Of a stretch of DNA of 64,000 bases, positions 4,355 to 54,553 are shown in pieces. Within the stretch, counting starts at the first letter, position 1, and the number at the start of each line of letters is the position of its first letter. The notes under the pieces are model-generated. The model was not told where the DNA came from and did not search any database. It saw nothing but the letters and a program-made list of their open reading frames with translations. A program made the position numbers and the translations under genes. Source of the DNA: a bacterium (GTDB lineage: Bacteria > Zhuqueibacterota > Zhuqueibacteria > Residuimicrobiales > Krinioviventaceae); contig JAKQIY010000061.1 in the NCBI GenBank assembly GCA_029561455.1, forward strand, positions 62,001 through 126,000, in the 5' to 3' direction.

Positions 4355-5041
4355 TTAAAGCGGGATCAAATCCGGGTTGGCCAGGTATTTCTGGAAATTC
4401 TGAATTTCCACATCGGTATACTGCGAGGCGTCGCGCAGGTTGTTATCCAGCACTTTGGCGGCGAGACTAAAATTTTGCAACTGATAATGCCCCTGGTTAC
4501 CGGCCAGATTCTGGATTTCTAACAAGTCGTGAATATTTAAAAACCGTTTCACGACCGTGGTGCGGAACATAAAAGACACCCCGGAATTTTTGATTATTTC
4601 AATACTGTTACGAATATCGTCCAGCCGCGCCTCAACCCCGCAGACCGCCGGGTATTTTGCCAGCGGCGCTTTAATATCCATGGCGATATAATCCACCAGG
4701 TTTTCCCGTAACAATTCATTCAATACCAGCGGGCGGCTGCCGTTCGTGTCCAGCTTGACCAGGTAATCCATTTTTTTGATGTCGCGAATAAAGTCCACCA
4801 AATCTTCCTGCAGGGTAGGTTCGCCGCCGGTAATGACGATGCCGTCTAACTGCCGGCGGCGTTTGGCAAATAACTGAAACAAGCTGTCCGTCGCTACTAA
4901 CGCGCCATATTGCTCCGGTAAAACCAGTTCGGGATTATGGCAAAACGGGCAGCGGAAATTGCATCCCTGTGTAAATACTACAGCGGAGAGTTTACCGGGA
5001 TAATCGATCAATGAAAATTTTTGCACACCGGCTATTTTCAT
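4355..5041 (-). CDS. nrdG: Anaerobic ribonucleotide reductase activating protein (radical SAM)
   Basis: A 228-residue radical-SAM activase that installs the glycyl radical on NrdD using S-adenosylmethionine and a 4Fe-4S cluster. The cluster motif CNFRCPFC gives Cys27, Cys31 and Cys34, followed by GGEPTLQ, the usual SAM-binding stretch. The length and the opening QKFSLIDYPGKLSAVVFTQGC match the longer NrdG subtype that resembles pyruvate formate-lyase activase rather than the roughly 155-residue E. coli form. The start overlaps the nrdD stop by 4 bases, so the pair is coupled. Confidence 0.95.
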   Translation of the reverse strand: MKIAGVQKFSLIDYPGKLSAVVFTQGCNFRCPFCHNPELVLPEQYGALVATDSLFQLFAKRRRQLDGIVITGGEPTLQEDLVDFIRDIKKMDYLVKLDTNGSRPLVLNELLRENLVDYIAMDIKAPLAKYPAVCGVEARLDDIRNSIEIIKNSGVSFMFRTTVVKRFLNIHDLLEIQNLAGNQGHYQLQNFSLAAKVLDNNLRDASQYTDVEIQNFQKYLANPDLIPL

Positions 5042-7149
5042 GCAGAAATTGTCTTTCGCATTTTAAATTCTTCCTGCTTGCCGTCATTCCACTGGGCCAC
5101 AGGGCGTAAATAGCCCACCACCCGGGAATAAACTTCACACTTTTGCGCACATTTGGGACAAAATTCCTTTTCACCATCGATATAGCCACAACTTGGACAG
5201 ACGCTAAAAGTCGGGGTTATGGTAAAATAGGGTAACCGGTAATTGTTGCAAATTTTACGGATCATGTTTTTCAAAGATTCGGTATCTTTGATGCGCTCGC
5301 CAAGGAACAGGTGAATAACCGTACCGCCGGTATAGCGGGTTTGGGTTTCATCCTGCAAATCCAGCAGGTCAAATATATCATCCGTATAATTGACGGGTAA
5401 ATGCGAAGAATTTGTATAGTACGGTGCCGCAGAAGAGCAGACCTTGTTCTCCAGGTCGATGGCGCTGATGATATTGGAATATTTACTTTTATCCAATTTG
5501 GCCAGCCGGTAGGTGGTGCTTTCCGCCGGGGTGGCTTCGAGGTTATAATTATTATCGGTTTCTTCCTGGAATTCCACCAGCCGGTTGCGCATATAATTCA
5601 ATACCCGCAGGCTGAACTGGCGGCCGGTCTCGGTGCCGATATTCTCGCCAATCAGGTTCACACAGGCTTCGTTCATACCGACAATGCCGATGGTAGCAAA
5701 ATGATTTTTCCAGTACTGGTTAAACCGCTGCTTGACGCTGCGCAGGTAAAATTTGGTATAAGGATAGAGATTGTCATCCGTAAAGCGTTCCAGGATTTTC
5801 CGTTTAGTCTCAAGACTATCCTTGGCCATGACCATCAGAGTGTTCAGGCGATCAAAAAATTCCTCTTCAGTCGATGACAGGTAACCCAGCCGGGGCAGGT
5901 TAATAGTAACAACGCCGACAGAGCCGGTGAGGGGCGCGGACCCAAACAAACCGCCGCCGCGATTCCGCAGCACCCGGTTATCGATACGTAACCGGCAACA
6001 CATACTGCGGGCATCTTCGGGGTTCATATCGGAATTGACAAAATTGGCGAAATAGGGCAAACCATATTTCGCTGTGCCTTCCCATAGCAGATCCAGGTTC
6101 GGATTATCCCAGTCAAAATCTTTGGTAATGTTATAGGTGGGAATGGGGAACGTAAATACCCGGCCTTTGGCGTCGCCCGCCAGCATCACTTCCAAAAAGG
6201 CCCGGTTGAACATATCCATTTCTTTAGTAAATTCTTTGTAGGTTTTGTCCTGCACTTCTCCACCGATGATCACGCCCTGATCCGCATAATAAGAAGGGAT
6301 GGTCTGATCGAGCGTAACATTTGTGAACGGCGTTTGAAAGCCGACGCGCGTGGGCACGTTGACATTAAATAAAAATTCCTGTAATGCCTGTTTCACTTCC
6401 GTATAAGTAAGATTGTCGTACTTGATGAACGGCGCCAGCAATGTATCAAAATTAGAAAAAGCCTGGGCGCCGGCAGCTTCACCTTGCAGGGTGTAAAAGA
6501 AATTGACGATTTGACCCAGGGCGCTGCGGAAATGTTTGGCCGGCTTGGATTCCAGCTTGCCGGAAGCGCCTTTAAACCCTTGCAGTAACAGATCGTACAG
6601 ATCCCAACCCACACAATATACGCTCAGTACTCCCAAATCGTGGATATGCATATCACCATTTATGTGCGCCTCGCGGATATGCGCCGGATAAATATTGTTC
6701 AACCAGTAAATTTTACTCACTTCGGCGGATATATAGTTATTCAACCCTTGCAGGGAAAAACCCATATTACTGTTTTCCCGAACCTTCCAGTCAGTTTTAG
6801 TTAAATATTGATCGACCAGGTCGACATTAAATTTGGAAGTGATCTCACGCATTTTGGCGTGCTGTTCACGATAAATAATATAAGCTTTGGCGGTTTTTTT
6901 ATAAGGGGAGGCTAACAGTACTTCCTCAACCAGGTCCTGAATTTGCTCTACTGTTACAATGTTATCATTTAACAGGTATTGAGCCAGGGATAATGTTCTT
7001 ATAGTTAATAATTTAGCGGTTTCCGATTCAAATTCCCCGCTTGCCTCTCCGGCTTTGGCGATAGCATTGGTGATCTTTTGCGAGTCAAAATCAACTACAG
7101 TGCCGTTTCGCTTTACAATCTTTCGGAAGGTTTTTAGTGCTACACTCAT
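5038..7149 (-). CDS. nrdD: Anaerobic ribonucleoside-triphosphate reductase (class III)
   Basis: A 703-residue glycyl-radical enzyme reducing NTPs to dNTPs without oxygen. Residues 1 to about 95 form an ATP-cone (KRNGTVVDFDSQKITNAI) for allosteric control. The catalytic barrel follows. The C-terminus has a Zn-type cysteine set (CPSCG at 651-655, CPKC at 664-667) and the radical motif RVVGY with the candidate glycyl radical at Gly679. The ATG is preceded by GGAGGAG. Upstream are paired NrdR boxes and a folded leader. It is the only ribonucleotide reductase in the window. Confidence 0.97.
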   Translation of the reverse strand: MSVALKTFRKIVKRNGTVVDFDSQKITNAIAKAGEASGEFESETAKLLTIRTLSLAQYLLNDNIVTVEQIQDLVEEVLLASPYKKTAKAYIIYREQHAKMREITSKFNVDLVDQYLTKTDWKVRENSNMGFSLQGLNNYISAEVSKIYWLNNIYPAHIREAHINGDMHIHDLGVLSVYCVGWDLYDLLLQGFKGASGKLESKPAKHFRSALGQIVNFFYTLQGEAAGAQAFSNFDTLLAPFIKYDNLTYTEVKQALQEFLFNVNVPTRVGFQTPFTNVTLDQTIPSYYADQGVIIGGEVQDKTYKEFTKEMDMFNRAFLEVMLAGDAKGRVFTFPIPTYNITKDFDWDNPNLDLLWEGTAKYGLPYFANFVNSDMNPEDARSMCCRLRIDNRVLRNRGGGLFGSAPLTGSVGVVTINLPRLGYLSSTEEEFFDRLNTLMVMAKDSLETKRKILERFTDDNLYPYTKFYLRSVKQRFNQYWKNHFATIGIVGMNEACVNLIGENIGTETGRQFSLRVLNYMRNRLVEFQEETDNNYNLEATPAESTTYRLAKLDKSKYSNIISAIDLENKVCSSAAPYYTNSSHLPVNYTDDIFDLLDLQDETQTRYTGGTVIHLFLGERIKDTESLKNMIRKICNNYRLPYFTITPTFSVCPSCGYIDGEKEFCPKCAQKCEVYSRVVGYLRPVAQWNDGKQEEFKMRKTISA

Positions 7150-53139: not shown

Positions 53140-54189
53140 TTATTTGATATTAATAATCCCCGTGTGTTCGGATGTAACAAAGCCGATAATTGCCGCGGTT
53201 TCGCCGGCGTCGGTCAATTCGCGCTGTAATTGCCGGGCTTGTGCTTCCGGAACCGCAAACAACAGTCCGCCCGACGTTTGCGGATCGCAAAGCAGGTATT
53301 GCGCCGACAAATCAAAACGGGAATGCCAAGTTATATTAGGCGCGGTATACAAATGATTCGCTTTGGTGCCGCCGGGAATAAAACCTGCGCGCGTCGTTTC
53401 CAGCGCTGCCGGGATAATCGGAATATCCTCATAAAGTAATTCAAAACCCACCCCACTCCCTGCCGCCATTTCCAAAGCATGGCCCAGCAATCCGAAACCG
53501 GTGATATCCGTACAAGCATGAACTCCAACATGCTGACTAATTTCAGAAGCGGTTCTGTTTAGCTTTGCCATTTGCCTGGATACTGCCGCAATAACCCGTT
53601 CATCGGCCTTGCCGGCTTTAAGTGCTGTAGTTATAGTGCCGGTGCCAAGCGGCTTGGTCAGGATCAAAACATCGCCCGGCTTGGCGTTACTGTTGGTTAA
53701 AATCTTGCCGGGATGGATCAAGCCGGTAACCGCCATGCCATATTTCAACTCGCTATCGGAAATAGTATGTCCGCCTAAAATGATCGTATCCGCTTCCCGG
53801 GCTTTGTCGGCGCCGCCCTGCAGAATATCGGCCAGCACCTGCAAGGGGAAAATATCTTTGGGAAATCCGGCGATATTCAGGGCAGAGAATGGCCGTCCGC
53901 CCATTGCGTAAACATCGCTCAGCGAATTCGCTGCTGATATTTGTCCGTACATATACGGATCATCGACAATGGGTGTAAAAATATCGACGGTTTGCACCAA
54001 TGCCAGTTCGTCAGTTAATCGAATAACACCGGCGTCATCAGCCGTATTCAGTCCGACCAGGACCCGTTCATCAGTAATGGGAGGCAGTTTTTCCAAAACT
54101 GCGGCCAGTTCATTTGGCGCAAGTTTGGAAGCTCAGCCAGCGCATTTAACAGTTTCGGTCAAACGCTTGGGTGTAAATTGTTCGGGCAT
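53140..54189 (-). CDS. selD: Selenide, water dikinase (selenophosphate synthetase), UGA-containing selenoprotein
   Basis: A 349-residue enzyme making selenophosphate from selenide and ATP. Reading through the TGA at 54133-54135 as selenocysteine (codon 19) gives LTETVKCAGUASKLAP, matching the family LTxxVKCAGCAAKL active site: Sec19 takes the place of the catalytic Cys and Lys22 the catalytic Lys. Without readthrough the protein would appear to start at a downstream TTG (54096) and lose the active site. The rest is standard (DDAGVIRLTDELALVQTVDIFTPIVDDPYMYGQISAANSLSDVYAMGG; DPQTSGGLLFAVPE). ATG 54189 is preferred; 54195 is an in-frame alternative. Confidence 0.93.
54091..54135 (-). other. SECIS-like element downstream of the selD UGA
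   Basis: Two bases after the UGA (54133-54135) begins a stem: TTCCAAAC (54123-54130) pairs with GTTTTGGAA (54091-54099) with one bulge, then TGCG-CCA with TGG-C-CGCA (one bulged C) around the 7-base loop AATGAAC (54108-54114). The loop starts 18 bases after the UGA, in the bacterial SECIS range. Coding constraint and structure coincide, which is the normal bacterial arrangement. Confidence 0.7.
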
Positions 54190-54270
54190 ATCCATTCCAT
54201 TAAAAGTTAATTTGCAAATATATAAATAAAGTTGAAATAACCAAATATATTTTTAAAAAGTATTGTAATG

Positions 54271-54300
54271 AAAAAAAAAGCCCTCCGTTACAGAGGGCTT
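54271..54300 (-). terminator. Rho-independent terminator after tRNA-Asp
   Basis: Stem AAGCCCTC/GAGGGCTT with a 7-base loop, followed on the minus strand by nine T (54271-54279). It closes the transcript containing the tRNAs and separates it from selD. Confidence 0.92.
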
Positions 54301-54309
54301 GATGCTGTG

Positions 54310-54383
54310 CGGGGCCGACGGGGCTCGAACCCGCGACTTCCGGCTTGACAGGCCGGTGTGCTAACCAACTGCACCACGACCCC
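54310..54383 (-). tRNA. tRNA-Asp (GTC)
   Basis: A complete cloverleaf on the minus strand: acceptor GGGGTCG/CGGCCCC, D arm GTGCAGTTGGTTAGCAC, anticodon loop CCTGTCAAGCC giving GTC, and T arm GCGGGTTCGAACCCC. Discriminator G; CCA is not encoded (CAC follows). Located 95 bases downstream of tRNA-Val. Confidence 0.97.
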
Positions 54384-54478
54384 GACTTGAGCATATTAAA
54401 ATACAAAATTTCTTTTCAAAAAGCAATGGAAAATTTCGTTTCCATAAAAAAGGCCAACGACTTGTTTGTTGGCTGGTG

Positions 54479-54553
54479 TGGGCGATACTGGGGTCGAACC
54501 AGTGACCTCCTGCTTGTAAGGCAGGCGCTCTAGACCAACTGAGCTAATCGCCC
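54479..54553 (-). tRNA. tRNA-Val (TAC)
   Basis: A complete cloverleaf on the minus strand: acceptor GGGCGAT/ATCGCCC, anticodon stem CCTGC/GCAGG with loop CTTACAA giving TAC, and T arm ACTGGTTCGACCCCAGT. Discriminator A; CCA is not encoded. Its 5' end is 5 bases after the stop of the small membrane-protein gene. Confidence 0.97.

Follow-up and report, generated by a model that had tools for sequence, protein, structure and literature searches.

Selenophosphate synthetases (SelD) that themselves contain selenocysteine (Sec) are a well-known selenoprotein type, represented by the bacterial SelD-Sec, e.g. of Pasteurellales and Clostridia, and by the eukaryotic SPS2. In an ocean survey, approximately 5.6% of the Sec-SelDs carried a CxxU motif (PMC2398784). 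Every selenoproteome known by the time of PMC1794560 contained FdhA or SelD, and SelD can maintain the Sec trait where FdhA is missing (PMC1794560). Fusions of NifS with SelD have been reported in very few bacteria, and that of Geobacter sp. FRC-32 has both Sec and CxxU (PMC2398784, PMC4561486). For KSB1 genomes, a survey recorded the genes selA, selB and selD, but no selC (PMC9012183). The gene described here is a further member of the Sec-SelD type. It resembles the known members in the predicted Sec at the single known catalytic-loop position, a bSECIS-like hairpin directly downstream, two AIRS domains and the Sec trait of the genome, but has the minority CxxU motif, with Cys three residues ahead of Sec, Ser at the position of E. 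coli Cys19, and a hairpin loop without the consensus G.

The gene was found in a stretch of 64,000 nucleotides (the window) belonging to a genome of 5.85 Mb that is 98.8% complete. With TGA translated as U, the minus-strand frame 54189-53140 reads MPEQFTPKRLTETVKCAG-U-ASKLAPNELAAVLEKLP... and ends with the stop codon TAA; the UGA at 54135-54133 is its single internal stop. The features of the gene are as follows.

53140..54189, minus strand: selD coding sequence, 349 residues with Sec19 (translation with TGA as U, TIGR00476, Pfam AIRS and AIRS_C)
54133..54135, minus strand: in-frame UGA, predicted Sec19 (sequence; aligned with E. coli Cys17; TGA in 26 of 40 relatives)
54142..54144, minus strand: Cys16 codon, forming the C-A-G-U (CxxU) motif with Sec19 (sequence; motif kept in close relatives)
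53140..54096, minus strand: mechanical ORF with a TTG start, 318 amino acids, active site missing (program-made ORF list)

An alternative in-frame ATG start lies at 54195 (MDMPEQ...). The TTG at 54096 is the start that gene callers would pick, with the loss of the catalytic loop; reading through the UGA corrects a selD model that routine annotation would cut short. The preliminary description of this DNA had claimed that the frame upstream of the 54096 ORF runs on through a UGA (LTETVKCAG-U-ASK), that this UGA lies in the SelD catalytic region, and that the N-terminal truncation is only apparent, all of which is borne out by the frame and by the alignment given below.

Translated through the UGA, the protein scored 385 bits against the selD profile TIGR00476 (cut-off 125) over profile positions 1-310 of 311, and aligned across nearly its full length with SelDs of solved structure (1e-62 to 1e-69); Pfam assigns it the AIRS and AIRS_C domains. 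Such family membership, by the curated TIGR00476 cut-off, predicts an enzyme that would form selenophosphate from selenide and ATP. In the alignment with these structures, U19 and K22 occupy the positions of E. coli Cys17 and Lys20, respectively, the catalytic residues of the SelD N-terminal loop. The position of E. coli Gly14 is Cys16 here, giving C-A-G-U, and that of E. coli Cys19 is Ser21.

Immediately upstream of the gene, the following elements were located.

54215..54245, minus strand: promoter-like TTTG-N19-TATATTTG, just upstream of selD (weak; ~1.8 matches expected by chance in the window)
54278..54300, minus strand: terminator-like hairpin after tRNA-Asp (weak; 3 found vs 2.6 expected)
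54309..54383, minus strand: tRNA-Asp(GUC), upstream neighbour of selD
54478..54553, minus strand: tRNA-Val(UAC), upstream neighbour of selD

The motif TTTG-N19-TATATTTG follows the Bacteroidota-type promoter consensus. The terminator-like hairpin after tRNA-Asp weakly suggests that selD is on its own transcript.

Exactly one in-frame TGA was present in at least one SelD of 26 of the 40 related genomes, the same genus included, and it was at the same codon in those relatives whose sequences were inspected. Such recurrence in independent genomes argues against a sequencing error for TGC or TGT, a possibility that the preliminary description had raised. An error of this kind, or a recent pseudogene, could be suspected because the genome is an assembly of 85 contigs and the copy is known from assembled sequence, not raw reads; however, the single-TGA SelDs of the relatives, the intact and conserved remainder of the frame and the RNA folding excess after the UGA (see below) make it exceedingly improbable.

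The 14 codons before the UGA differ from those of each of twelve close relatives by 5-9 synonymous and 2-4 nonsynonymous changes. The sequence KRLTE(T/S)VKCAG ahead of the UGA is kept in these relatives, the nonsynonymous changes being mostly N-terminal to KRLTE. Since the codon changes are mostly synonymous, the stretch before the UGA is evidently translated. This bears on the reading in which the UGA is a true stop and a shorter protein, begun at TTG 54096, functions without the N-terminal catalytic loop. An ORF of 318 amino acids does exist, but the codons upstream of the UGA are under protein-level constraint, the UGA stands in place of the catalytic Cys codon in a SelD that is intact in other respects, and the genome has no other SelD to supply SelA; we therefore regard a true stop as very improbable. 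A global reassignment of UGA was also considered and rejected, as UGA is the stop codon of 7 out of 40 long ORFs in the window. For three of these seven, the extended frame beyond the UGA was inspected by eye and gave no recognisable selenoprotein.

The RNA downstream of the UGA folds into the structures listed here.

54091..54130, minus strand: predicted SECIS hairpin, full form, with a lower stem, internal bulges, an apical stem and the 7-nt loop AAUGAAC (MFE -17.1 kcal/mol, z -2.6)
54104..54118, minus strand: apical stem-loop core, conserved (90% of cells paired; 3 of 5 pairs changed on both sides, a count in which shared ancestry overstates independence)
54084..54102, minus strand: overlapping alternative 8-bp hairpin with a GGA loop (81% of cells paired across relatives; -7.7 kcal/mol alone)

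The full hairpin is the minimum-energy fold and begins 2 nt after the UGA; for this selD alone, ~2% of codon-preserving randomisations fold as stably. Over the 48 nt after the UGA, 34 Sec-type genes gave a mean z of -1.5 relative to such randomisations, whereas the same region of 22 Cys-type homologues showed no folding excess (mean z -0.1), and the apical part alone gave -1.5 and +0.1, respectively, all of these being means over genes that are related to each other and so are not independent trials. Across 20 members of the class, the covariation score of the apical stem 54118-54104 exceeded that of every one of 500 shuffles and of every slid version, with the same caveat of common descent. 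At the outermost apical pair, the change goes with codon changes of the Ala/Ser and Ala/Gly kind and could represent a single event. Conservation of the lower stem is confined to close relatives and breaks down in distant ones, and the alternative hairpin is widely kept as well.

The bacterial SECIS model has an apical loop of 3-9 nt, an upper stem of 4-16 bp, a UGA-loop distance of 16-37 nt, an MFE of -7.5 or lower, and a G within the first two positions of the apical loop (PMC13188914). With its 7-nt loop, 18 nt from the UGA, and -17.1 kcal/mol, the hairpin lies within the length, spacing and energy limits, but the only G of AAUGAAC is at position 4; several relatives, e.g. L075, L076 and L090, do have the G where the model places it. 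A search of Rfam gave no match near the gathering score at the UGA. Consequently, of the bulged hairpin with a 7-base loop that had been proposed to begin two bases after the UGA, the fold itself stands and the apical stem is conserved, but the lower stem is not, and the loop departs from the guanosine rule. The loop without the consensus G, the lower stem unconserved in distant relatives and the overlapping alternative hairpin count against the Sec model.

The genome as a whole contains four of the four components of the Sec-decoding trait, SelA, SelB with its domains, tRNA-Sec and SelD, all on different contigs. The tRNA-Sec is canonical, with a UCA anticodon, G73 and an encoded CCA. An intact second selD together with absent Sec machinery, which the preliminary description had named as the opposite outcome, was not encountered: the only other SelD match in the genome scored 49 bits, under the TIGR00476 cut-off, and SelA, SelB and tRNA-Sec are present. 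The earlier statement that the UGA shows Sec use holds for Sec use, which follows from the machinery, but not for a single selD UGA as its proof. At least two further UGA selenoprotein genes were found among the families searched. One is a SelW-like (Rdx) gene with a CDMU motif, MKITIEYCDMUNYYPKAA (L106, minus strand, ending near 1501; C29:292938-293141), and the other encodes a peroxiredoxin in which UGA occupies the peroxidatic position (GDFTFVUATE) and is followed by a strong hairpin (L110 1052-1450, plus strand; C43:17051-17449). The genome search found neither MnmH nor a PF00384 molybdopterin oxidoreductase, so that one would expect neither selenouridine nor a formate dehydrogenase belonging to the latter family. 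The idea that, MnmH and molybdopterin oxidoreductase being missing, SelD is the sole selenoprotein was rejected on account of the SelW-like and peroxiredoxin UGA genes. The selenoprotein set of this genome agrees with the observation of PMC1794560.

The UGA in 26 of 40 relatives, the codon constraint, the folding excess, the Sec machinery and the two additional UGA genes make SelD a selenoprotein supported by all computational tests applied, and the UGA at codon 19 is almost certainly read as Sec. We hold it highly probable that the product is a selenophosphate synthetase with Sec inserted at this codon.

The source organism is of the uncultured KSB1 type, because G011, a relative from the same order, and KSB1 bacterium Bin_298 have identical SelDs. 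A tRNA-Sec with the UCA anticodon occurs both here and in 27 relatives, one of them G011; a complete Sec trait is thus documented in a KSB1-type genome. Two genomes, G035 and G039 (95% and 94% complete; L073, L078), have a Sec-SelD and tRNA-Sec and gave no SelA match at all, which may be due to incompleteness or to another Sec synthase. G035 also has a second tRNA-Sec-like copy with an unpaired acceptor stem (L145 523-600, plus strand), probably a pseudogene, its intact tRNA-Sec being elsewhere (L146).

A tree of 80 SelD rows pairs the window gene, as sister, with that of its own genus. The two belong to a well-supported and almost wholly Sec clade of their class, which adjoins a group with a Calditrichaceae sequence; because of this placement, selD looks vertically inherited. 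Two Blautia SelDs (L029 and L031, ~5001-5990) have Cys (AAGCGAK) within a clade of Sec forms, likely a Sec-to-Cys change. Among the 40 related genomes, 14 have a Sec-SelD only, 12 have both a Sec-SelD and a long Cys-SelD, and 8 have the long Cys form only, the rest giving partial or no matches. All 19 long SelDs scanned, 18 from the same class (L053, L054, L056-L068, L071, L074, L101) and one from a Bacteroidota-labelled record (L038), have a class-V aminotransferase (NifS-like, PF00266) N-terminal to SelD, always with Cys (GLGCACK). They share an N-terminally extended Cys-SelD with the Ndh-SelD (COG1252-SelD) fusions, but differ in the PF00266 domain; the Ndh-SelD identity was rejected, as Pfam gives PF00266 in all 19, and no NADH-dehydrogenase domain was found in them at E <= 1e-15 (E <= 1e-3 for L064). 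Like the fusion of Geobacter sp. FRC-32, they have the class-V aminotransferase domain N-terminal to SelD, but they contain Cys where that protein has Sec and CxxU. The fusions form one clade of the tree, often occur in genomes that also have a Sec-SelD, and were not found above the cut-off in the genus of the window. Measured against the NifS-SelD cases of PMC2398784 and PMC4561486, and with newer literature covered in part, a clade-wide Cys-type NifS-SelD coexisting with Sec-SelD seems to be new. A SelD at a contig end (L098 1-1030, plus strand; G014) is like a NifS fusion (Cys) in its first part and, from about residue 160, like the Sec-SelD of its genus neighbour, being either a recombination product or an assembly chimera.

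For the mechanism, we infer that the hairpin immediately 3' of the codon-19 UGA would direct SelB, with its Sec-tRNA-Sec(UCA), to this codon, and that Sec19 would replace the catalytic Cys. The enzyme would then make selenophosphate, which SelA would use to form Sec-tRNA-Sec, serving SelD itself and at least the SelW-like protein and the peroxiredoxin. Because the genome search turned up no second SelD, making the enzyme in the cell would require the enzyme's own product, and a cell that had lost SelD may have no way to resume Sec synthesis. Judging by gene content, relatives with a fused Cys-SelD would have an obvious restart route, which the window genome appears to lack.

Two additional tRNA genes with a UCA anticodon are relevant here.

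L141 5482-5579 (C67:20481-20578), minus strand: tRNA-Sec-like gene, UCA, 98 nt (see also L012 and L014)
L141 8759-8856 (C67:23758-23855), minus strand: tRNA-Sec-like gene, UCA, 98 nt (see also L012 and L014)

They lie 3.3 kb apart on contig C67, flank a secreted-protein gene, and scored 53.7 and 48 bits (gathering 47); ARAGORN missed them by default and reported them only with introns allowed. Their acceptor stem, GACGGGA/UCCCGUC, is fully paired and unlike that of tRNA-Sec, and they have U73 rather than G and no encoded CCA. The copies are 90% identical over a duplicated 195-bp unit, with 5 differences in the 98 nt of the tRNA vs 13 in the 92 nt upstream (Fisher p 0.046), and a new complementary acceptor stem is not expected of a decayed copy. 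No Sec or tRNA-synthetase genes, and no selB* or cysS*, were found near them; the 195-bp unit was not found in viral contigs (as an exact pattern), phages or plasmids, nor the tRNAs in the relatives searched.

A published precedent is selC* tRNA-Cys(UCA) (PMC7609411). The extra tRNAs are like it in the tRNA-Sec-like body and D arm, the UCA anticodon and U73, but selC* tRNA-Cys has 8/4 acceptor/T stems with a bulged A, whereas the extra tRNAs have a 7-bp acceptor stem, a T stem of 5 bp in one copy and 4 bp in the other, and no adjacent selB* or cysS*; by these features they appear to resemble selC* tRNA-Cys without matching it. The precedent, and the two genes with their own fully paired acceptor stem and U73, raise the possibility that one of them decodes the selD UGA, in part or for the most part, with an amino acid other than Sec, e.g. 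Cys. We consider this very unlikely, as the extra tRNAs are not 8/4 and lack a neighbouring selB* or cysS*, the genome retains intact SelA, SelB and canonical tRNA-Sec, the same UGA occurs in relatives where no such tRNA was found, and U73 is also present in the Gly and Thr tRNAs of this genome, as well as in its Cys tRNA. Insertion of Sec at codon 19 thus remains our preferred reading.

There being no selenium-independent SelD, it is conceivable, though we think it very unlikely, that under selenium shortage the two tRNAs, charged with Cys or another amino acid, read the selD UGA to give a selenium-independent starter enzyme; the NifS-fused Cys-SelD may do the same job in relatives. If the extra tRNAs serve Sec UGAs, residue 19 of SelD could sometimes differ from Sec. 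The clade alternates between Sec-SelD alone, NifS-fused Cys-SelD alone and both, and with this the start-up of a self-dependent SelD becomes testable.
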